NCBI GenBank assembly: GCA_945874695.1 | Contig: CAMCHP010000024.1 | Span: forward strand, 1 to 38,464 | Reading direction: 5' to 3' | From: Chryseobacterium gleum | Lineage (GTDB): Bacteria; Bacteroidota; Bacteroidia; Flavobacteriales_D; Sanyastnellaceae | Length of the DNA stretch: 38,464 bases | Shown here: in pieces, positions 28,238 through 38,464 of the stretch | Layout: every line of letters begins with the position of its first letter | Position numbering within the stretch: position 1 is the stretch's first letter | Translations under genes and position numbers: made by a program | The notes under the pieces: model-generated | What the model was told of the DNA's origin: nothing | The model's database searches: none | The model's input: the letters and a program-made list of their open reading frames with translations, nothing else

Positions 28238-28405
28238 GTGCTTTTCAAAAAGATACTGTACTACCTCAATCCCTTGAACCTATTCAAAAAGGAAAAAGAG
28301 GCCAACGTGAACCTGCGCGTTATGCACGGAATCAATAAGATTTCGTTTGTGATGTTCCTAGTATGCTTAATTTATATGGTTGTTCGCTGGGCGATGCGCG
28401 GTTAA
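28238..28405 (+). CDS. Small single-span membrane protein (DUF6728-like)
   Basis: A 55-residue reading frame from GTG 28238 to TAA 28403-28405. It has a basic first half (LFKKILYYLNPLNLFKKEKE), a NVNLRVMHGINKIS segment, and one hydrophobic span (FVMFLVCLIYMVVRWAM). The pattern MHGINKIS followed by a membrane segment and RW resembles DUF6728, a small Bacteroidota family of unknown function; that match is from memory and tentative. Its stop overlaps the stop of the convergent PorP/SprF gene by 4 bases, and it follows ridA by 45 bases, which fits a co-transcribed pair. Confidence 0.65.
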   Translation: MLFKKILYYLNPLNLFKKEKEANVNLRVMHGINKISFVMFLVCLIYMVVRWAMRG

Positions 28406-29397
28406 CGCAAGCGGATGCGATTTCCGGGGAACCACCCGGTCCAAATCAAGCTGATTTCCCAAGCGCTCTGTAGCCGTTGAATTTGCTGCAACCGGCTCGC
28501 GGTGATGTCATATGACAAACCTATACGCAGCGCGCGTTGGTACTCGAATCCGGCTGACACAAGCACCGCATCGTCCCACCGATAATGAAGACCTCCGAAA
28601 ACAGCGTTGCTGGCAAGGGCATTGGTATACTTTGAATCACTGCCCAAACGGTAAACCGCGCGTGCTCCAGCTACAGCGGTAATTGCACCTCCTTGTTTTG
28701 CAGCAATGAAGTCATAATCGACCAGTACAGGCCCGTAGATTTCGCGCCACGTAAAATCAATTTGGTGACGGATTAAAACACGATCTAGCGTATTGGCTAA
28801 AAAGCCGTTCGGCTGGAAGTAGTGCCATGCTGCATAGCCTGCGTTGAAGTGCTTGTTTCCTCTTCGTCGGTATTGCATGCCAAATGCTGCATCCATCGAG
28901 GTGGCACGATCTTTTCCAAAAAGCTCACCGCTGGGTAACGAGGGGTCATGCGCAATGCCATTGAACTGCGAATCCCAGGCAAGCCCATCAAAGTCTATGG
29001 TGCGCTGTCTGTATCCGGCCGTTAGGCCGAAACCTAAAAAATCTTCAGAATTCAGCACCAAGTGAAAAGCAGCTTGGCCAGCCACTTCAAAGTTTCGCAT
29101 TTCAGAGCCTGCAGCTCGGTCATTGCGGACGAACAAACCGAATCCGTTTGAACCACCCTTTCGTTTGAATGCGGCCAGCTCCATTGCCGCGGTTGTGGTT
29201 ACATAGGGTTGCGTAACGCTGCCCCACTGGTTGCGGTAGTTCGTCGCAGCTCGGTAATCTCCTTCGATGTCGCCAGTAGCAGCAGGATTGATAAGACTGG
29301 ACAAGGTCCAAAATTGGCTCACGATGGCATCTTGCGCGATGGTATGCGCACTTGCTAACAGGGCTAGGGCTAGCACGATATGTCGCAGTTGCCTCAT
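28402..29397 (-). CDS. PorP/SprF family type IX secretion system membrane protein
   Basis: A 331-residue outer-membrane beta-barrel protein with signal peptide MRQLRHIVLALALLASAHTIAQ. The PorP/SprF pattern is clear: DAIVSQFWTLSSLINPAATGD near the mature N-terminus, YRNQW, and GFGLFVRNDRAAG, then alternating strands to ISLIWTGWFPGNRIRLR. Members of this family assist secretion and surface attachment of type B-sorted adhesins, as SprF does for SprB in gliding Flavobacterium. Its ATG overlaps the stop of the large adhesin gene (ATGA), the classical SprB-SprF pairing. Convergent with the small membrane-protein gene. Confidence 0.93.
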   Translation of the reverse strand: MRQLRHIVLALALLASAHTIAQDAIVSQFWTLSSLINPAATGDIEGDYRAATNYRNQWGSVTQPYVTTTAAMELAAFKRKGGSNGFGLFVRNDRAAGSEMRNFEVAGQAAFHLVLNSEDFLGFGLTAGYRQRTIDFDGLAWDSQFNGIAHDPSLPSGELFGKDRATSMDAAFGMQYRRRGNKHFNAGYAAWHYFQPNGFLANTLDRVLIRHQIDFTWREIYGPVLVDYDFIAAKQGGAITAVAGARAVYRLGSDSKYTNALASNAVFGGLHYRWDDAVLVSAGFEYQRALRIGLSYDITASRLQQIQRLQSAWEISLIWTGWFPGNRIRLR

Positions 29398-32300
29398 CGA
29401 ATCAATACGATATTACCGCGTTCCTCAAGTGTCAAACCGTCGTTCAACCGCGCACGAAGGAGCCAAATGTAACTTCCCGATGGCATGGTTTCACCCCTGA
29501 ACTGGCCGTCCCAACCGCGGGCGACGTCTGTCGTTTCAAATACGAGCTCACCCCACCGGTCATATACTGTGAACGAGAGCTCCAAAAAGCCTTGTCCGCG
29601 CACAAATAAAATGTCGTTCAAACCATCTCCGTTGGGCGAGAAAATATCAGGAATGAAAATCGGAGTGGGTGGCAAAATGCAGATGTCGGTCGTATAAGTC
29701 GATAAGCAATCACCTTCATTGTAGAGCAGAAGGGTCGCCGTATAATTTCCGGGCTCTGGGTAGGATACGGTTAAAACCTCGCCCGCACTGTACGAATTCA
29801 CATCACCGTTACCCAAATCCCAAAGGCCAGTAATGCCGTTTTGACTGAAGTCAATGATTTCGATCGGTTGCGAATCCCATGGTATGCAGCTGGCATTTGG
29901 ATTCGTACTGAACAACGCACTCACAGGCGAATAGCTTGGTACCAAGATCAGGGAGTCGAAGCTGCAGCCTTCGACGACATCAACAATAGCCAGCTCTACG
30001 ATGCTTCCTGCGCTAGTGTTGAAGCTATTTGCATCGGTTTCGCCGGGGCCACTCCACGTGATTTCAAAGGTTCCGTCTTGGGTCAATTCAGCACTTGCGA
30101 ATGCACCTTCCTCTCCAAAACAAAGCAAGTCGCTGGTGGTAACAAGCGGTTCAATTGGAGGCAATACAGCAATCCAAATGGAGTCGGTCACGGGGTCTGA
30201 ACACCCGTCGTCGAGGGTGAGGTAGTAGTACTGGCTTTGCGCAGGACTTACACTATTCGTAGAGACTCCAAACAAATCATCACTCCATGTGTAGGTGTAG
30301 AATGTTGCTTCACCACCGCCAGCTGCGCTGCCCGAGACCTGTGTTCCAGAGCCCGGACATAAGGTTTCATCAACTGCAGTGAGTGCCACTTCAAGCGATG
30401 GATAAACAAAAACCGAAATCGTTGTATCACTCGAACAGAAGGCACCTGTGTAGCTATAACTCAAGATGTGTTCGCCTTCACCAGCGAGTGCGGGGTTGAA
30501 TGCGCCATCGGTAGCAACTCCACCCGCACTGCCTCCTTCAGGAAAATAAGTGACTGGAAAGTCACTGTTTTCAAAACAATAAGCAGCCTCGAGCCCTGAA
30601 ATGGTTGCTTGTTGAAAGGCCTCAACCGTGACGAAGACGCTGGCGGTACAGCCCGCTGGGGTACTCCAAATCACTTCGTTTTCGCCCGGATTTGCAGTCC
30701 CAGGATCAAACAAACCGGTAGCTGAATCAACCACACCCGATCCAAGCCAAGAGCCTCCTGAATTCACGGCCGAATTTAAAAGCACGGCATCTTCAGTTGA
30801 GCAAAACCCAAAGGGCCCAACTTCGAACGTTGTGGGGTGTACAATCATGAGTAAACTGTCGGCGCAACCGTTCGCCGTGTATGTAATCCAATGTTCTCCG
30901 TTTCCGGCTAACGCCGGGATGAAGCCGAATAGATCATCTTCCTGAACCACCCCAGCGCCCGTCCATCCGCCTCCAAAAGGAGTGCGTTGGGTATTCTCTT
31001 CATCCAAGAGCAAGCCTTCATCATCAGCACACCACCAAAGGGTATCGATGGGGATGGTTGTTTGTCGGTTGTAATAATAAATGGTGTCACTGCACCCGTT
31101 GGGGGCGTAGTAAATCAGCGCGGTCCAATAATCATCGGGTAAACTGCCTGGGGCATAAAGTCCAGTTTCACTATTTTGGATGCCATCGCCTTCCCAATAT
31201 CCGCCGGTAGGCGAAAAATCAGGCGTAGGCACAAAGGGTGCTTGCTCAGGACAGCTGCTGCGCACCCGTGAACCGGTGAAAATTTCTTTCACAGTGACCG
31301 TAAACAATTGATCACAACCTTGAACGGTATACAAGAGGTTGTACGTTCCTCCTGGAACCTCCTCAGGTGCAAATACACCCAAAAGCGAGTCGATGATCCC
31401 GGGGCCGGTCCACAATCCTCCCAACGGAGAAAACTCCAAGGTATCAGGGAAGTTAGATTGGCAGAGGGTATCTAATTCAAAAACCCCCGTGATGTTGGCC
31501 ACATTCATTAAGAGTGTATCAGAGCAGCCGGCAAGGGTATAAATGAGTTCATAACTCCCTTCTGTAGAGGGGTTGAAAAGGCCTTCCGGGGTAACGAAGT
31601 CGCCAGTCCACAAACCACTTGGTGGATTGGGTTCGAGAAGAAATTCCGGGGCGCCAGGGCATGCAGCTAAAACGCCACCGGCATCGATGGGAGCAATTTC
31701 GATGAATAAGCTATCATAACAGAACTCGCTGAACCCATAGTAAATGGTATTGATTCCGACGTTTGCAAGTTCAGGATCAAAAAAACCAGACAGCTCATCA
31801 ACACCGTCTCCGAGCCATGTCCCACCGGGTGTTGATGCGGTGAGGGTGAACGGTGTAGCTGTTTGACAAAGCAAAGTATCATTGAGGAGGATCGTCGGAT
31901 TCAATACTTCAAGCGTGAAGCTTTCAGTTGTCGACTGTCCGGTGGCAATTTCGGTAATCACCACCGTGTAAGTGGTACTTTCTTCAATGCAGACTTGGTG
32001 CGGACCCGCAGTAGGAGGGAGTGCTTGGTCCCAAAGAAAGCTATGATCATTGCATCCTTCGACGACCGCCGTAAGCTCGACGCATTGGTTCGCGCAAATG
32101 ATATCTTGAGTGGCTTCAATGCTGCCGAGCACACCACAATTGGTTACATCAAAGGTTGTTGCGAGTTGGTAAATCCAGATGCTATCGCACACATCAGGGA
32201 TGCCCATGCGTATACCCACGCTGTAAGCGCAATTGTACGCGAAAGGTTCGTTCAAGGTAATCTGGGCCGTGCTGCCTTCGCCGTTGGTGCAAAGCACAGA

Positions 32301-32891
32301 AGCCGCAATGACCTCTATTTCGCTGCTTCCGAGAACTGTTACACTATCAGCTGATAACCAGTCACATCCAATGGGGTAGCTAAAGTTGACTGTGAAGCTG
32401 TTGCTGTTGCATAAGGGTTCAGCTGGCACCGTGATGAGCGGTGGATCAGGTGGTCCTACAATGGTATTCCAGAAAATGTGAAATCCGCAATAAGCGGCAC
32501 TTTGATCAGATGTAAATTGGAAGGTAACCGCACCGCTTGTTGCAACCACCCCAGGTGGAATGAATCCAGTTCCATTGATCGTCGCAAGCAGGGGAGCGCC
32601 TGTCGAAGTTCCGTCATAAATGTAGAGGAAGTCGAATCCATTTTCGATGCATACTTCTGAAAGAAAGGAGACTTCAATGCTTACACCGCCGGTTTCAACT
32701 GTAAAAACTAAATTCTCATTGTTGCCGTATTCTTCGCCGTCACCGCCGGAGTCAAAAAGGAAGCCATCACAATCAGTAACCAAGGTATCAGCCATGAGAT
32801 ACTCTGGCGCTTCTTGCGTGAATCCATTGATATGAATTGCTAAAAGGCTAGCTAAAACGAGCAACCAGTTTTTATCACAAAACAGTCTCAT
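29394..32891 (-). CDS. Giant type B T9SS adhesin with CUB domain and tandem repeats
   Basis: A 1165-residue surface protein, signal peptide to about residue 26 (WLLVLASLLAIHINGFTQ). A CUB-like domain occupies about 36-145 (four Cys; FLYIYDGTSTGAPLLATING). Two Ig-like regions follow (146-335). Seven tandem repeats of 65-75 residues run from about 337 to 832, each with GG-x-W-x-G-x-G, then G-x-F-x-P and a late Cys. After them come two more Ig-like units, a PKD-like domain (about 985-1070, SYPEPGNYTATLLLYN), and the gliding-motility C-terminal sorting domain (1080-1165: FSPNGDGLNDILFVRG, YDRWGELVFE, GWDGQF, G-x-Y-x-W). It is likely displayed on the surface with the PorP/SprF partner. Confidence 0.92.
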   Translation of the reverse strand: MRLFCDKNWLLVLASLLAIHINGFTQEAPEYLMADTLVTDCDGFLFDSGGDGEEYGNNENLVFTVETGGVSIEVSFLSEVCIENGFDFLYIYDGTSTGAPLLATINGTGFIPPGVVATSGAVTFQFTSDQSAAYCGFHIFWNTIVGPPDPPLITVPAEPLCNSNSFTVNFSYPIGCDWLSADSVTVLGSSEIEVIAASVLCTNGEGSTAQITLNEPFAYNCAYSVGIRMGIPDVCDSIWIYQLATTFDVTNCGVLGSIEATQDIICANQCVELTAVVEGCNDHSFLWDQALPPTAGPHQVCIEESTTYTVVITEIATGQSTTESFTLEVLNPTILLNDTLLCQTATPFTLTASTPGGTWLGDGVDELSGFFDPELANVGINTIYYGFSEFCYDSLFIEIAPIDAGGVLAACPGAPEFLLEPNPPSGLWTGDFVTPEGLFNPSTEGSYELIYTLAGCSDTLLMNVANITGVFELDTLCQSNFPDTLEFSPLGGLWTGPGIIDSLLGVFAPEEVPGGTYNLLYTVQGCDQLFTVTVKEIFTGSRVRSSCPEQAPFVPTPDFSPTGGYWEGDGIQNSETGLYAPGSLPDDYWTALIYYAPNGCSDTIYYYNRQTTIPIDTLWWCADDEGLLLDEENTQRTPFGGGWTGAGVVQEDDLFGFIPALAGNGEHWITYTANGCADSLLMIVHPTTFEVGPFGFCSTEDAVLLNSAVNSGGSWLGSGVVDSATGLFDPGTANPGENEVIWSTPAGCTASVFVTVEAFQQATISGLEAAYCFENSDFPVTYFPEGGSAGGVATDGAFNPALAGEGEHILSYSYTGAFCSSDTTISVFVYPSLEVALTAVDETLCPGSGTQVSGSAAGGGEATFYTYTWSDDLFGVSTNSVSPAQSQYYYLTLDDGCSDPVTDSIWIAVLPPIEPLVTTSDLLCFGEEGAFASAELTQDGTFEITWSGPGETDANSFNTSAGSIVELAIVDVVEGCSFDSLILVPSYSPVSALFSTNPNASCIPWDSQPIEIIDFSQNGITGLWDLGNGDVNSYSAGEVLTVSYPEPGNYTATLLLYNEGDCLSTYTTDICILPPTPIFIPDIFSPNGDGLNDILFVRGQGFLELSFTVYDRWGELVFETTDVARGWDGQFRGETMPSGSYIWLLRARLNDGLTLEERGNIVLIR
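30396..31883 (-). repeat. Seven tandem GG-x-W-x-G repeats within the adhesin
   Basis: Seven successive units share W-x-G-x-G, G-x-F/Y-x-P, a Y or W strand and a Cys near the end. They are diverged at the DNA level, so they are old or under diversifying change, not a recent expansion. The seventh has lost the W-x-G core (GGSAGG). Confidence 0.75.
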
Positions 32892-33343
32892 TCACTCTCG
32901 ACGATTAGAACCGGTGGCGTAACGATTGCGTTGCTCCAATTGCCAGCGCGATCTTTGATTTGAAGCGTAAAGGTTGCTTCTTCTGAGCTTCCATTGCCAA
33001 GAATGAATAGCGGGTTCAGCGTAACAGTGTAACTGCCTTCAATTTGAAGTTCTTCTAAGTCGGGTGTCATTGGAGGAACATGATACCAGTCGTAATTGAG
33101 CAGGCGACTGTCTTTCACGCGCAGGGTGTTCACGTCTGGATTTGGCGATCCCAAATCTCCATCCCCATCTTTAAACTTGATCACGACCTCAACGGCATTG
33201 GTGAACTGCACCACTTCCGATTCAGAAATGGAAACGAAATCTAAGGAAGGAACACGCTCAATGGGTGCTTCCTTTTTGCATCCGCCCGTTAGGGCGAAAA
33301 CCAAAAATAGCAGCGTAAAACGTTGATAACCCATGCTGATCAT
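32888..33343 (-). CDS. Small lipoprotein of unknown function
   Basis: A 151-residue protein; ATG 33343 overlaps the stop of the previous gene (ATGA), and ATG 33334 is an alternative. The signal peptide ends in LTGGC (Cys22), a lipobox. After a short linker (KKEAPIERVPSLDF) there is a beta-rich domain with VVIKFKDGDGDLGSPNP, a Ca-loop-like acidic stretch, and FTLQIKDRAGNWSNAIVTP, an Ig-like strand pattern. I do not recognise a named family. It overlaps the adhesin start by 4 bases (32888-32891), so it is translated just before that gene. Confidence 0.8.
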   Translation of the reverse strand: MISMGYQRFTLLFLVFALTGGCKKEAPIERVPSLDFVSISESEVVQFTNAVEVVIKFKDGDGDLGSPNPDVNTLRVKDSRLLNYDWYHVPPMTPDLEELQIEGSYTVTLNPLFILGNGSSEEATFTLQIKDRAGNWSNAIVTPPVLIVESE

Positions 33344-34299
33344 AAGATTTGCAAAGTAAAGAGTGCGGTAATTACAGCATTGCTTCCCGTGTTGGGTAAT
33401 TGTGTTGGCTCAGGCTGCGCGCCGTCATCGAAGGTTGTGCGCAAGAACAATGTTGTACCTGAAGCATAAGCGCTTAAGTTCACCGAAGCTCTGTGCCAAT
33501 AGGTGACAGAGGGGGTAGTAAAACCGGGCGCAGTGATTGAAGCACCGCTGACGAAACTTAGTGGTGCGGCGGTTGGAAGCAACTCCAAGGTTGTTGCGAC
33601 TTGCAATTCATTCACAGCCATATTCTGCGGCGCGGTATTGTCATCGGTTACGGCAACCCAAATGTCGATTGTTGTGGCAGGAACGAGAATCGGACTTACG
33701 CCAACACTTTCAGGGTCACGCTCATACGGGGTTGATGTGGTGCCGGATGGAAACACCAGCAAGCCTTCAATGGTAGGCGGAAAATCGACACTACCACTCC
33801 CAGGAATATTGCCATACATATCAGGTGCGCCTGCGTTAATCCATGCGCTGAGGGCGGCTAAATAGTTATCGCGCTGAGCGTCCCAATCTGAATCAGCATC
33901 GACCACAAGCGGCATCATGCCTGATGTATTCTCAATTTCATTGGTCAGGCGTTCATAAAGCAACGATGCGCTTACATTTCCCGGCACCACCCGGTAATCA
34001 AACGAAAACTGAGCGTCATTGGCAATGACCGGATGGTTAACCAAGGTATTGTACGATGAAGATATTGTGTTGAAGTGGGGTTCAAATGTTCCGTCATGGC
34101 AGCCACTGTTTGCGCATGTCGGCTTGAACACTTTGGCATGCAACCACGCAAAGTTGTCGGCTGGCAATACATCTGCGGGAAGCTGTACGTCGACATTTGG
34201 TTCAATCTCCGCGTACGGATTGACAACCTCTTCAGGTTTGCAAGCCACGAGCACGACGGCAAGTACAGCAATGAAGGAGATGTTTCGCAATGCTCTCAT
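33340..34299 (-). CDS. Lipoprotein with CX4CH cytochrome-like (PSCyt-type) domain
   Basis: A 319-residue lipoprotein (lipobox LVAC, Cys20). Residues 50-160 follow the planctomycete-cytochrome pattern: PTCANSGCHDG, with Cys62, Cys67 and His68 in a C-x4-C-H spacing, then RVVPGNVSASLLYERL, then GMMP (Met128 or Met129, a possible distal ligand), and LSAWINAGAPD. In the usual form the motif is CxxCH; CX4CH does bind haem in some cytochromes c3. The remaining ~150 residues are beta-rich and end in LQIL. Whether haem is attached is an inference. Downstream of DUF1501 with a 4-base ATGA overlap. Confidence 0.8.
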   Translation of the reverse strand: MRALRNISFIAVLAVVLVACKPEEVVNPYAEIEPNVDVQLPADVLPADNFAWLHAKVFKPTCANSGCHDGTFEPHFNTISSSYNTLVNHPVIANDAQFSFDYRVVPGNVSASLLYERLTNEIENTSGMMPLVVDADSDWDAQRDNYLAALSAWINAGAPDMYGNIPGSGSVDFPPTIEGLLVFPSGTTSTPYERDPESVGVSPILVPATTIDIWVAVTDDNTAPQNMAVNELQVATTLELLPTAAPLSFVSGASITAPGFTTPSVTYWHRASVNLSAYASGTTLFLRTTFDDGAQPEPTQLPNTGSNAVITALFTLQIL

Positions 34300-35630
34300 A
34301 TTAAATCGAACAAAGAATTGGTACCATTGGCGACCATGCCCGCAGCTTGTACTTCGGGTTTAACGCCTAATATGTCAGCCACGGTCATCATGCTGTCGCT
34401 GACGCCACCGACCGGATTGTTCTCACTGCCAACCACAAGATTAGCTGGAACATTCGGGCCAACCATCAGGGTGAAAACGCGCAGCGAATTGGCATCGCTG
34501 TGATCGTAAGAACGCCAATCATTCTCATCAAGAATGTTGTTCGGTTGAAGATTTCGACCACATTCCGGGGTGCAGATCAACGTGGTGTTGCCGGCCATTT
34601 CAGGTATTTGGGTCTGGATGAAGTTCCAAAGGTGACCAACCGCGTGATCTGCGCGGTGCAAGTTGCCAAGGTATCCTGTGAAATCAGAATGGCAGGTATC
34701 AACAGCATTGAGGTTGATTACGGTTAAGGCGGGTTTAAATTCCCGAATGACTTCACACGCATAACCAACAGTTGCTGCATCACCATTGTCGGTCACAGGA
34801 GGCATGGCGATTGTACCATTGTTCGTTCGGGTGAACATTTCTTCCATGAAAGCCTTGATTTGCTGCTTTTCTTGGTCGGTGTTCCCTAAATTGTCAAGTC
34901 GGCCGCCATATTGCTCAAAGCTGTTATCGAGGAAATACTTCAACTGATACATCGGTGCCAACTCATTTTCGGGGTGGTAAACCTTCGCATCACCCAAGAA
35001 GGCTTGACACGTTTCATTGAAGGTAATGGTAGGGGCGAAGAAGTTCGCGCCATAGGCCGAACCGTAATTGCTGTGTCCAGAGTAGTTCAAAAGCGGAACT
35101 GAGTTCATGATTCCGTTGCCTACAAACCACACGTCGGTTGCGTTATAGCCACCATGGCGACGGAGGTACTCAAAAATGGTCGGATTCAACGGCCGCTGTT
35201 TCAAGCCTTGGGTGGTTACGGTACTTCCTTGAACCAAAGAGTTTAGTCCGCCAAAATGCCCGGCGCTCAAGGCCGAAACTTCAGGAAATAGGGTGCCTTG
35301 TGACTGCAGGGTACTTGATAAAAGCGAAGGAATAGGGTTCAAACCACCAAGCCCAGTGCCATAAACGATCTTTTGCGTGGGCGCATCACCTGTTAACATG
35401 TTGTACATGATGTTACCGGCATAGGGTTCATTTTGCTGACTGCCATCTAAGTAGCGCTGCAAAACGCTCTCTTGTTGACGAACACCTCCTGCAAACATGA
35501 CAAGCACCACATGGCCACTCATTCGCCGACCCGAAGCCGCGAACAACCTTCCGCTCGGGAGAATATACGGCGCAGCGATTGCAGCTGCCGCCGCAGCACC
35601 CGTTTTCTTTATAAAGTCACGTCGTTTCAT
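34296..35630 (-). CDS. Tat-exported DUF1501 protein
   Basis: A 444-residue protein with a twin-arginine signal (MKRRDFIKKTGAAAAAAIAAPY) that argues for export of a folded or cofactor-bearing protein. ATG 35630 was chosen because the signal begins there. The mature part is DUF1501, an alkaline-phosphatase/sulfatase-superfamily fold: HVVLVMFAGGVRQQESVLQR near the start, and DENDWRSYDHSDANSLRVFT toward the C-terminus. Its substrate is unknown. In planctomycetes DUF1501 genes accompany DUF1549/DUF1553 and cytochrome-domain genes; here a similar set is encoded by separate lipoproteins. It begins 4 bases past the stop of the 165-residue lipoprotein. Confidence 0.9.
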   Translation of the reverse strand: MKRRDFIKKTGAAAAAAIAAPYILPSGRLFAASGRRMSGHVVLVMFAGGVRQQESVLQRYLDGSQQNEPYAGNIMYNMLTGDAPTQKIVYGTGLGGLNPIPSLLSSTLQSQGTLFPEVSALSAGHFGGLNSLVQGSTVTTQGLKQRPLNPTIFEYLRRHGGYNATDVWFVGNGIMNSVPLLNYSGHSNYGSAYGANFFAPTITFNETCQAFLGDAKVYHPENELAPMYQLKYFLDNSFEQYGGRLDNLGNTDQEKQQIKAFMEEMFTRTNNGTIAMPPVTDNGDAATVGYACEVIREFKPALTVINLNAVDTCHSDFTGYLGNLHRADHAVGHLWNFIQTQIPEMAGNTTLICTPECGRNLQPNNILDENDWRSYDHSDANSLRVFTLMVGPNVPANLVVGSENNPVGGVSDSMMTVADILGVKPEVQAAGMVANGTNSLFDLI

Positions 35631-35634
35631 ACGG

Positions 35635-36132
35635 TCAGTAATAAAGGTATTCGTTGGATAAGGCAAATGAGAAATAGACAATCTCCGGAGTTACATACGG
35701 ATTGGTCGTGATGAAATTCCGAACGTAAAGTTTCTCTGCTTCAGTCGGATAGCGCACGTAGAATCGAATGTAGGTGTCTTCAATGAAAGCATCCAAATCA
35801 AGGTTCATTTCTTCCACGGTTGGAATGAGCACATCGGGTTCATTCATGAAGTTACTAATGATCACTTCGCGCGCCAATTCTTTGTCTCCAATCGATTCAA
35901 TGCAGGTGTTGATCGAGAAAATATCATTCGCCGATAAAGCCGTTTGAAACAAATTGGCATGCAGAATGGCCACATATTGCTCGTTGGTTTTCATCTTCTC
36001 TTTCCCCGCACTCGAGGGATAAAGCTCAACGTCATTCAAAAGAAAAAGCGGTTCGGGCTCTTTCTTACAGCCTGCAGCAAGCACGAGGCACAGCACAGGC
36101 ACGATGCATTTAATTAAACCCTGCATACTCAT
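35635..36132 (-). CDS. Lipoprotein with DUF4214/DUF1549-like end module
   Basis: A 165-residue lipoprotein (LAAGC lipobox, Cys22); ATG 36132 overlaps the previous gene by 23 bases, ATG 36126 is an alternative. The C-terminal part (about 121-164) reads YIRFYVRYPTEAEKLYVRNF, ending with FALSNEYLYY. This R-x-P-T-x-x-E ... S-N-E-Y pattern resembles the helical module of DUF4214 and the tail of planctomycete DUF1549/DUF1553/DUF1800 proteins. The first half is helical and carries the same register without the RxP. No function is known. It lies between a related 302-residue lipoprotein and the DUF1501 gene. Confidence 0.75.
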   Translation of the reverse strand: MSMQGLIKCIVPVLCLVLAAGCKKEPEPLFLLNDVELYPSSAGKEKMKTNEQYVAILHANLFQTALSANDIFSINTCIESIGDKELAREVIISNFMNEPDVLIPTVEEMNLDLDAFIEDTYIRFYVRYPTEAEKLYVRNFITTNPYVTPEIVYFSFALSNEYLYY

Positions 36133-37018
36133 CTGAAATTAAAATGGTGCGTTGAACAGCACTGAAATCAAGGTTGTTTTCCAAGGTCTCAGCAGCAATG
36201 AAAACTTCTTGTGAAGTCGGATTTCGTGAGAGTAAAGATTGATAGGCCCAAATGACCATACCCTCGTAAAACTCACCCGTAGAGGTCAGAATTTGAAGAT
36301 ATTCGAGTTTGGTTTGGGCGACCATACCAAATAAAACCGAAGGTTCATTCAATTCTACAATTTGATACGCCTGGTCAAATTCAGGTTGCGTAGGAAATCG
36401 AAAGAACGAGTCGTCAAATGACGCATTGATGAAGTTGAATGCATTCATGTTGATGTCGTCATACACTGCATTAAACATCATTCTGCGGGCAAGTTCAGCG
36501 ATACTGATTGCATCATTCTGGTAAGAAATTCGCCCCACCATGAGTGAATCCAAACGCAAAGCCTCGGCCATGTTCATGGCATAGCTGGTCATATCACCGT
36601 TCAATGAATCCAATATCGCATTGCCGCGATACAGGCCATAACGCTCGTTAAGCAAAGCTTCTGAAGCCCCTTCGATATAACGCGCTTTTAAATTTTCGTA
36701 TAACTTAACAACGTAGGCGCGTCGATAACTGCTGTCACCGTCAATGAATTCAGTGCTAAACATTAGCCGATCAACAAGTTGAGTGCGCGAGCTTGCGCTC
36801 AAATTGTTCGTACGCAAGAAGGCGCGATCGCTTTCCATTTCAGCATCTAAAGGCTCGCGACCAATCAAATCGATATATACACGATTGATGTAATTGTTAA
36901 GCACTACCGTCGAAACCCCAGCGTATTCAGGAATCGTATTGTCTTCGAATACAACTGGTTCTTTTTTACACGATGCCAAAAGCACGAGCGAAATAAAGAG
37001 AAAGAGTAAAGGCCTCAC
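36110..37018 (-). CDS. Lipoprotein with repeated DUF4214/DUF1549-like modules
   Basis: A 302-residue lipoprotein (lipobox LLASC, Cys17) and the first gene of the unit. Three segments share a pattern: about 47-91 (VYIDLIGREPLDAEMESDRA ... LMFSTEF), about 206-250 (FRFPTQPEFDQAY ... STGEF) and about 258-301 (SLLSRNPTSQEV ... ILISDEYAGF), that is F/R-x-P-x-x-x-E followed ~35 residues later by S-x-E-F/Y. The second fits least well. This resembles DUF4214 or DUF1549-type helical modules. Not a recognised enzyme; an adaptor or anchor role is an inference. It overlaps the next gene by 23 bases. Confidence 0.75.
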   Translation of the reverse strand: MRPLLFLFISLVLLASCKKEPVVFEDNTIPEYAGVSTVVLNNYINRVYIDLIGREPLDAEMESDRAFLRTNNLSASSRTQLVDRLMFSTEFIDGDSSYRRAYVVKLYENLKARYIEGASEALLNERYGLYRGNAILDSLNGDMTSYAMNMAEALRLDSLMVGRISYQNDAISIAELARRMMFNAVYDDINMNAFNFINASFDDSFFRFPTQPEFDQAYQIVELNEPSVLFGMVAQTKLEYLQILTSTGEFYEGMVIWAYQSLLSRNPTSQEVFIAAETLENNLDFSAVQRTILISDEYAGFN

Positions 37019-37093: not shown

Positions 37094-38464
37094 TCACTTC
37101 ACATGAACAATTTGTTGTCGTTGAACACCATCTACATTTCGTAAATGCACGTAGTAAACACCTTGTGCCAGTGTGTTCAAGTTGATTTCCGCCTGAACGG
37201 CGGGATGGGGATGTACATAAACAAGTCGTCCGAGGGCATCATAGAGCATAAGCTCAGCAATAGCTGAGCTTGAACGTATGTAAAGAACATCTTGCGCCGG
37301 GTTTGGATAGATTTGCGCCAAATCCGAAGTTCGCTCAGCGACAGAAACAACAATCACTAGAATCGCTGCGCCCTCTGCGATACATCCGTCTGGAGAGATT
37401 GCAACCACATGGTATTCGCCATTATCAATCGGCGACCACGAACTGTCAGTCTGATTTGGGATCAAATTCCCATTCAAATACCAGGCCAATGTGTTACCCG
37501 TGCAATTGGAACAACTGAGCACGTTTATGTCTTCATTGTAGCTTAACTCTGGTTCCTCAGGTAGTGGGTATACCTCAATCGGACCTAATTCGTAGCTGCT
37601 AAAATTGCCACTCACCTCATATTCATAAGTAACAAAGTAGGTTCCTGGCTCATCAAAGTCGAGGGTGAATGTGTCAACGCAGGTTGATTCGATTAAGGTA
37701 CCATCCAAATAAAATGCGCAACTACCACCCTCTGAGAGTGCCGTTTGATTGAAGAATGTTACTGAATGTGGTAAACAACCGGTCGAATCAGTTGAGCTCA
37801 AAAAGGCAACGCTGTAGATGCACGATCCGTCATTCACATTGGAATCAGGATTGAAGTTTTGGGCATTTGGGTCGTTGCAACCCGGGTATTCACATGAGCC
37901 GTCATCGACGGTAGCGTTGGCATTGAAGTTGGCTGCATCCGGATCGGTACAACCGCTGAAAAAACAAGATGCATCTTCAAAGTTTGCCGCTGGATTATAA
38001 TTATCAGCATTTGGATCGATGCACCCAGAAAATCGGCATGAACCGTCGTCAGTATCCGCCGCGGGATCGTAATTCATTGCCGATGCGTCAAGACAACCGG
38101 GAATACTGTTACCGGGGAATAAATGTGCGCGAACAATTGGTGCTTTTAACAAGTAGAACAAACCGTTGATCTCCGGATAGCGAATGAGGGAAGCTTGCGC
38201 CGTTGCATCGCCACTTCGGCCTACATAAAAGCTGCTGCCCACATCACTGCCGACCATCACAGTGTACATGAATTCAGGATCGGTGATGATGTCTTCTTGG
38301 AATTGTAAATGCACAATGCGCTCCGTACCAATTTCATTGATGTCCCAGGCATTCACCTCGTAGGGGTCGGTAATTCCAATAATGCTGTCGCGCGAAATGT
38401 TGTAAACGATCCCATAGATCATAGCTCCGGGCTGTGTAGGTGCTGTCAAGGCAACCCCAATACT
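37094..38464 (-). CDS. T9SS type A-sorted protein with Cys/Asp-rich repeats, 5' end missing
   Basis: The frame is open to the right edge, so the start is outside; at least 456 residues are visible. An N-terminal part with YTVMVGSDVGSSFYVGR is followed by four repeats (see the repeat entry) of the G-C-x-D-x-x-A-x-N-Y-x-P-x-A-x-x-x-D-G-S-C type. These resemble thrombospondin type 3-like calcium-binding repeats and are common in Bacteroidota secreted proteins. A PKD/Ig-like region (FFNQTALSEGGSCAFYLDG ... DEPGTYFVTYEYEVSG) and a Cys-containing Ig-like unit follow. The tail is a type A sorting domain (IYPNPAQDVLYIRSSS ... GRLVYVHPHP ... GVYYVHLRN). Secreted or surface-bound; function unknown. Confidence 0.88.
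   Translation of the reverse strand, partial: SIGVALTAPTQPGAMIYGIVYNISRDSIIGITDPYEVNAWDINEIGTERIVHLQFQEDIITDPEFMYTVMVGSDVGSSFYVGRSGDATAQASLIRYPEINGLFYLLKAPIVRAHLFPGNSIPGCLDASAMNYDPAADTDDGSCRFSGCIDPNADNYNPAANFEDASCFFSGCTDPDAANFNANATVDDGSCEYPGCNDPNAQNFNPDSNVNDGSCIYSVAFLSSTDSTGCLPHSVTFFNQTALSEGGSCAFYLDGTLIESTCVDTFTLDFDEPGTYFVTYEYEVSGNFSSYELGPIEVYPLPEEPELSYNEDINVLSCSNCTGNTLAWYLNGNLIPNQTDSSWSPIDNGEYHVVAISPDGCIAEGAAILVIVVSVAERTSDLAQIYPNPAQDVLYIRSSSAIAELMLYDALGRLVYVHPHPAVQAEINLNTLAQGVYYVHLRNVDGVQRQQIVHVK
37814..38098 (-). repeat. Four ~24-residue GC-x-D...DDGSC repeats
   Basis: The units read GCLDASAMNYDP..DDGSC, GCIDPNADNYNP..EDASC, GCTDPDAANFNA..DDGSC and GCNDPNAQNFNP..NDGSC. Each has two Cys and several Asp/Asn, the pattern of small calcium-binding repeats. 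The second has Ala in place of Gly before its last Ser-Cys. Confidence 0.85.

Follow-up and report, generated by a model that had tools for sequence, protein, structure and literature searches.

Within a 38,464-nucleotide stretch of DNA from Chryseobacterium gleum (contig CAMCHP010000024.1 of GenBank assembly GCA_945874695.1; hereafter the window), a listing of open reading frames (ORFs) identified seven tightly packed minus-strand genes at positions 28402-37018, here designated A to G. Genes A (36110..37018; 302 residues), B (35635..36132; 165 residues), D (33340..34299; 319 residues) and E (32888..33343; 151 residues) encode lipoproteins, whose lipobox cysteine never varies among 19 aligned members of B, D or E and hardly varies in A. 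Gene C (34296..35630) encodes a protein exported by the twin-arginine translocation (Tat) pathway, which is predicted to belong to the alkaline phosphatase superfamily and possesses an altered active site. Genes F (29394..32891) and G (28402..29397) encode, respectively, a 1165-residue type B surface protein of the type IX secretion system (T9SS) and a 331-residue PorP/SprF protein, its presumed shuttle and anchor. A and B overlap by 23 bases, and the C/D, D/E, E/F and F/G pairs by four bases each, while B and C are separated by a four-base gap, the B stop codon TGA (35637-35635) being followed by CCGT and then by the ATG of C. This ATG was taken as the start of gene C; the mechanical ORF begins further upstream at a TTG. 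Gene coordinates and junctions were thus re-found as an earlier reading of the DNA letters alone (the sequence-only reading) had given them, including its proposal of a seven-gene unit, the conservation of which we assessed across related genomes.

A search with C across 299 genomes of the order (E-value 0.001) identified matches in 99, of which 52 reached at least 160 bits (referred to below as strong). The other 47 genomes yielded weak matches of at most 42 bits, and the two weak-match loci that were fetched, L100 and L101, proved to be stand-alone phosphatase-fold genes (our labels begin with G for genomes and L for loci). A scan of GTDB contigs with C yielded at least 21 loci. Gene order was analysed over 72 loci, reduced to 64 distinct loci by removal of L079, L100, L101 and five duplicates, and all presence ratios count only loci with enough flanking DNA. 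The order A-B-C-D-E was broken in none of the 64 distinct loci. ORF calling detected A in 54/57, B in 56/61, D in 55/55 and E in 48/52 loci, and a six-frame search recovered every apparent loss, raising these ratios to 57/57, 61/61, 55/55 and 52/52. As called, neighbouring genes overlapped or lay at most 30 bases apart in 48/55 loci for A/B, 47/57 for B/C, 54/63 for C/D and 40/49 for D/E. F followed E immediately in 40 of 47 loci, the remainder being L045, where F lies upstream, and L049, L067, L083, L096, L098 and L099; the core genes and the adhesin are therefore not usually found apart. A PorP/SprF gene followed F in 29 of 39 loci by ORF calling and in 30 after recovery of that of L072.

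Genes flanking the unit in the window seldom recur anywhere in the 43 loci of at least 14 kb (RidA and TrpG in 5/43, LptD in 3/43, and a gene resembling the one upstream of A in 17/43), 39 of which extend downstream of C by 9 kb or more, and the conservation of A to G can therefore not be ascribed to general synteny. A chance neighbourhood of unrelated envelope genes, which has nothing in its favour except the commonness of short gaps in bacteria, would have to account for an A-E order that holds down to 35% identity in C though the flanks vary; together with the co-inheritance described below, this leads us to reject it as vanishingly improbable. Together, these findings support the view that A to G constitute one conserved cell-envelope unit, as the sequence-only reading had held, with an order and content far beyond chance.

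Patterns of gene presence tell the same story. Among the 299 genomes of the order, strong matches to C were found in 52, matches to A in 53 and to D in 51, with C and A occurring together in 51 genomes and C and D in 50; the exceptions (G223, G207, G263, G213 and G215) correspond to partial matches or matches near contig edges. Matches to F reaching 147 bits were present in 46 genomes, 42 of which also possess C (Fisher p = 7e-37, without correction for relatedness). The four genomes with F and no C (G180, G213, G231 and G233) are all metagenome-assembled genomes of 77-88% completeness, and three of the ten genomes with C and no strong F (G006, G137 and G199) have F beside C below the 147-bit cut; in some genomes F lies on a separate contig from C (G119:C5, with C on G119:C40). 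Across 36 loci, the correlation of pairwise distances with those of C was 0.73-0.81 for A, B, D and E and 0.49 for F, with the proviso that shared descent inflates all of these co-inheritance figures. In a distant subtype, with C 35-45% identical (L046-L049 and L096-L099), A to E occur in order wherever the DNA suffices, the genes after E differ, and F is absent from all four distinct loci with enough DNA (L049, L096, L098 and L099). Retention of A-E without F in this subtype identifies A-E as the core of the unit and F/G as an addition. Thus, of the proposed tie between the lipoprotein and C genes and T9SS export, the usual adjacency of F stands, but the core also exists without F and the coupling is not essential.

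At the level of the phylum, a search with C over 395 genomes recovered a full-length C only in the window's own genome (G000) and in G009; the matches in 38 further genomes were partial and scored about 75 bits at most, and in the six of these that were fetched, A, B, D and E were all missing from the surroundings. Two or three copies of C, falling into two subtypes, occur in G031, G047, G691, G692 and G696. Within family f9 the core is present in a single genome (G295:C169; C 54% identical), other f9 genomes having weak C matches or none, and this occurrence may reflect transfer or contamination. At one locus without F (L048:7183-15507), the genes after E resemble, by eye, a cytochrome or respiratory cluster. 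Upstream of A in the window, gene H (37094-38464) is cut by the contig end and comprises, as judged by eye, about four 30-residue repeats of the form GC.D..A.N....A..DDGSC, together with a type A T9SS tail; lying 75 bases from A and having the limited recurrence noted above, it is not supported as a member of the unit.

F and G match the domains expected of a T9SS type B adhesin and its partner, as had been proposed from the sequence. F contains the type B sorting domain TIGR04131 (E-value 7e-14; 51.7 bits, cut-off 35), with CHU_C (E-value 5e-16) and CUB matches over their cut-offs and Big_5 and PKD matches just under. G, directly downstream, is a PorP/SprF protein (E-values 1e-32 and 5e-42; 144 bits, cut-off 90.55). 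No type A sorting pattern was found among 41 F sequences, 40 of which end in Arg; L077 seems truncated and L060 is split. The window's own genome also encodes SprA (2382 bits, cut-off 200). According to the available portions of two reports, type B cargo requires a PorP/SprF shuttle, whose gene usually lies immediately downstream, and the cargo may be held together with PorE-like partners (PMC12618676, PMC9143113). By their domains and order, F and G are standard T9SS type B cargo and its presumed shuttle. The same genome contains 11 PorP/SprF genes and 46 CHU_C matches, 43 of them over cut-off, so that F and G are one of many such proteins. Given that F directly follows E in most loci, and that complexes of PorE, PorP and type B cargo are described in the accessible part of one study (PMC9143113), A-E could be a biogenesis or anchoring device for F, much as PorE serves PorP-anchored cargo. 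We regard this as unlikely, since the distant subtype keeps A-E without F, and a genome so rich in CHU_C proteins and PorP/SprF genes nevertheless possesses one C.

Gene C was examined by family searches, structure prediction and alignment. The sequence-only reading had assigned it to DUF1501, a family of Tat-exported proteins with a phosphatase fold. Its Tat signal (TIGR01409, E-value 3e-4) and its predicted fold agree with that description, but Pfam does not bear out membership of DUF1501: neither the window protein (no Pfam PF07394 match at E-value 0.1) nor its homologues (one of 19, at E-value 0.13) support it, and a genome search located the genome's own PF07394 protein as a different gene, elsewhere. 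In local-mode hhalign profile comparisons, conducted with and without signal peptides, C matched DUF1501 at 87.0% and 95.3% with Tat signals and at 40.5% and 12.1% without them. Conversely, its match to stand-alone canonical relatives was 99.9% with or without signals. The AlphaFold2 model of C (pLDDT 78) adopts an alkaline-phosphatase-superfamily fold, superposing on PafA with a Z score of 26 over 295 residues (rmsd 3.7 Å), and a Foldseek search with it reached an E-value of 1e-9 to a sulfatase. By this predicted fold, C is assigned to the alkaline phosphatase superfamily.

Residue conservation was subsequently mapped onto positions which, in PafA and the canonical relatives, we take to be metal ligands and nucleophile (65 rows were aligned, 64 with a residue at each site; our numbering is two more than the count from the ATG). 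One Asp-His-His set (D313, H316 and H379) is kept in 64/64 sequences, as are E56, H127 and R361. The first metal Asp of the canonical relatives is replaced by Gly (G50) in 64/64, and no Thr, Ser or Cys is conserved at the nucleophile place in these 64 sequences. Position 358 is Glu in 58 and Asp in six, and position 359 is Cys in 52, His in 11 and Gln in one. As aligned, C lacks the canonical first metal Asp and the nucleophile, and so probably serves as a binding protein, or catalyses some unusual reaction, rather than acting as an ordinary phosphatase or sulfatase. It is also conceivable, if rather doubtful, that C still hydrolyses phosphoesters or sulfate esters and that the unit is a common type of operon for nutrient acquisition, F binding a polymer and C trimming it. 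The profile of C matches stand-alone relatives, of which L100, L136 and L138 give hits to Phosphodiest, Sulfatase and Metalloenzyme, 5/19 C homologues themselves match Phosphodiest (best E-value 9e-6), the fold matches are sulfatases and phosphatases, and the residues at 358 (Glu/Asp) and 359 (Cys/His) could substitute for the lost ligands. Such activity is harder to reconcile with the invariant Gly and unconserved nucleophile, or with a conserved set A-G that contains no glycoside hydrolase or transporter.

The cytochrome-like character proposed for the CX4CH lipoprotein D was corroborated by profile comparison, in which D matched the PSCyt cytochrome region at 96.3% with signal peptides and 94.0% without. 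The reference comprised eight proteins, and Pfam confirmed PSCyt1-PSCyt2-PSD1 in all six that were scanned. Among individual sequences, the window protein has no match to Pfam PSCyt1 (PF07635), one of 19 homologues matches at E-value 0.048 without reaching the cut-off, and 13 of 19 members weakly match a diheme cytochrome family of NCBIfam. CX4CH and Met-Pro motifs are each present in 60/61 D sequences, and none of the 61 contains a CXXCH heme motif; the D homologue of L097 has CX6CH in place of CX4CH. The predicted model consists of helices followed by a C-terminal beta domain and is least sure around CX4CH (pLDDT blocks 56-64); Foldseek found no match to it at E-value 0.001, the best rows being weak beta-sandwich matches. 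By profile, D is PSCyt1-like, with a candidate single-heme site. Its PSCyt1-like region and Met-Pro motif, and the sole solved-structure sequence match, FoxE (E-value 0.0037), could instead indicate that the unit serves redox chemistry or electron transfer, with D as its active part and C as a scaffold. With a single candidate heme site per unit, and that of the unusual CX4CH form, such an arrangement appears improbable.

Single-sequence Pfam and NCBIfam scans of the window's lipoproteins gave sub-threshold matches for A and D and none for B or E. At E-values up to 0.5, DUF4214 was matched by 10/19 members each of A and B, and PBS_linker (phycobilisome linker) by 5/19 of A, the best E-value being 1e-8 overall and 8e-5 for B members against DUF4214. 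The window's A scored 19.4 bits against DUF4214 (cut-off 23.2), and a solved-structure search with A returned phycobilisome-linker matches beside unrelated HSP82 rows. These matches suggest that A and B weakly resemble DUF4214/phycobilisome-linker proteins. A DUF1549 likeness of A or B was not borne out, A reaching 17.7 bits against PF07583 (cut-off 29.8) and profile matches of 14.5% and 16.6%; matches to DUF1800 were 17-20% for A and 0.4-0.5% for B, and no profile supports an assignment of either protein to DUF1549, DUF1553 or DUF1800. Removal of signal peptides reduced the A-B profile match from 93.7% to 10.1%, leaving homology of A and B without profile support, and the B-E match from 91.2% to 1.2%. 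Given that the C-DUF1501 match also collapsed, these matches came largely from the signals. E is conserved, without a match in the Pfam and NCBIfam scans, and its solved-structure search was empty at E-value 0.5.

Taken together, the locus is best explained as a conserved module of the envelope, in which the core A-E would form a complex based on C that is usually coupled to an adhesin; we give this a probability of roughly 0.4. It builds on gene order, co-inheritance, the predicted fold, the motifs and the T9SS identity of F and G, and each step beyond these we infer. C would be exported folded via the Tat pathway, and held in an outer-membrane complex by the linker-like A and B together with D and E. 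The target of this complex may be a surface or extracellular polymer, and D would donate or accept an electron, presumably via one heme. In most members F, shuttled and anchored by G, might then join the complex to its target. Several observations weigh against this proposal. F co-varies with C less than the lipoproteins do, is missing from the distant subtype and is also not found after E in L067, L083 and L045, and no G was found after F in 9/39 loci. The altered site of C is deduced from alignments and from assumed roles of PafA residues, and the C-DUF1501 and A-B kinship of the first profile comparison vanishes without signal peptides. Furthermore, the CX4CH of D could be a disulfide rather than a heme site, and the lipoproteins may face the periplasm instead. 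A bolder version of the module, which we consider possible though rather unlikely, would be an undescribed Bacteroidota surface machine, in which C with its one metal set and no nucleophile, the CX4CH cytochrome and the linker lipoproteins carry out a redox-assisted polymer reaction targeted by its own T9SS adhesin. Such a machine would rank as a third type, alongside the PSCyt/DUF1501 and DUF1800/DUF1501 systems.

Literature titles and abstract openings, in which subscription papers were mostly outside coverage, yielded no description of this cluster, and the A-G unit is apparently undescribed so far. Its closest parallels are modules whose function, in the available portions of the reports, is not known (PMC5615132, PMC5122149). 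The modules of PSCyt1-PSCyt2(DUF1549)-PSD1(DUF1553) and DUF1501 found in Planctomycetes, Verrucomicrobia and some Bacteroidota likewise encode a Tat-exported protein, described as having a phosphatase fold, with a PSCyt1-type region. Here, however, a lipoprotein of its own carries the cytochrome-like region, with a CX4CH motif, DUF1549/DUF1553 partners are lacking, C is not a PF07394 protein, and an adhesin and shuttle are added. We also identified eight Bacteroidota examples of the planctomycete-type arrangement (L171-L178; of these, six were scanned with Pfam, which confirmed the PSCyt partner in each) and one genome with ten DUF1501 matches (G360). DUF1800-DUF1501 pairs similarly place a Tat protein beside a secreted partner of unknown function, but A and B lack DUF1800 profile homology, and no cytochrome is described in those pairs. 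Elsewhere in the window's own genome (L135:4313-8312, on G000:C20), a DUF1800-DUF1501 pair of the canonical type lies ahead of a T9SS type A protein.

With respect to T9SS type B cargo and PorP/SprF pairs such as SprB/SprF and PG1035/PorP, F and G have both the characteristic domains and the customary gene order, whereas the five core genes upstream are absent from the described pairs, and PorE-like partners are present there, as far as the available parts of these reports go (PMC12618676, PMC9143113). Compared with the alkaline phosphatase superfamily (PafA, sulfatases and phosphodiesterases), C shares the predicted fold and the Asp-His-His set but keeps neither the first metal Asp nor the nucleophile. 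The unit supplies a cytochrome-like family that is uniform in its CX4CH motif, and a clade of phosphatase-fold proteins in which an altered active site is conserved. It is split into small proteins that can be expressed singly and is usually tied to a displayed adhesin. Modules of the PSCyt/DUF1501 type are widespread, and a compact unit inherited as a block makes their role testable. On our best reading, the unit follows the same general plan as the planctomycete PSCyt/DUF1501 modules, and this likeness of plan stands out more clearly than does any shared ancestry of C and DUF1501.

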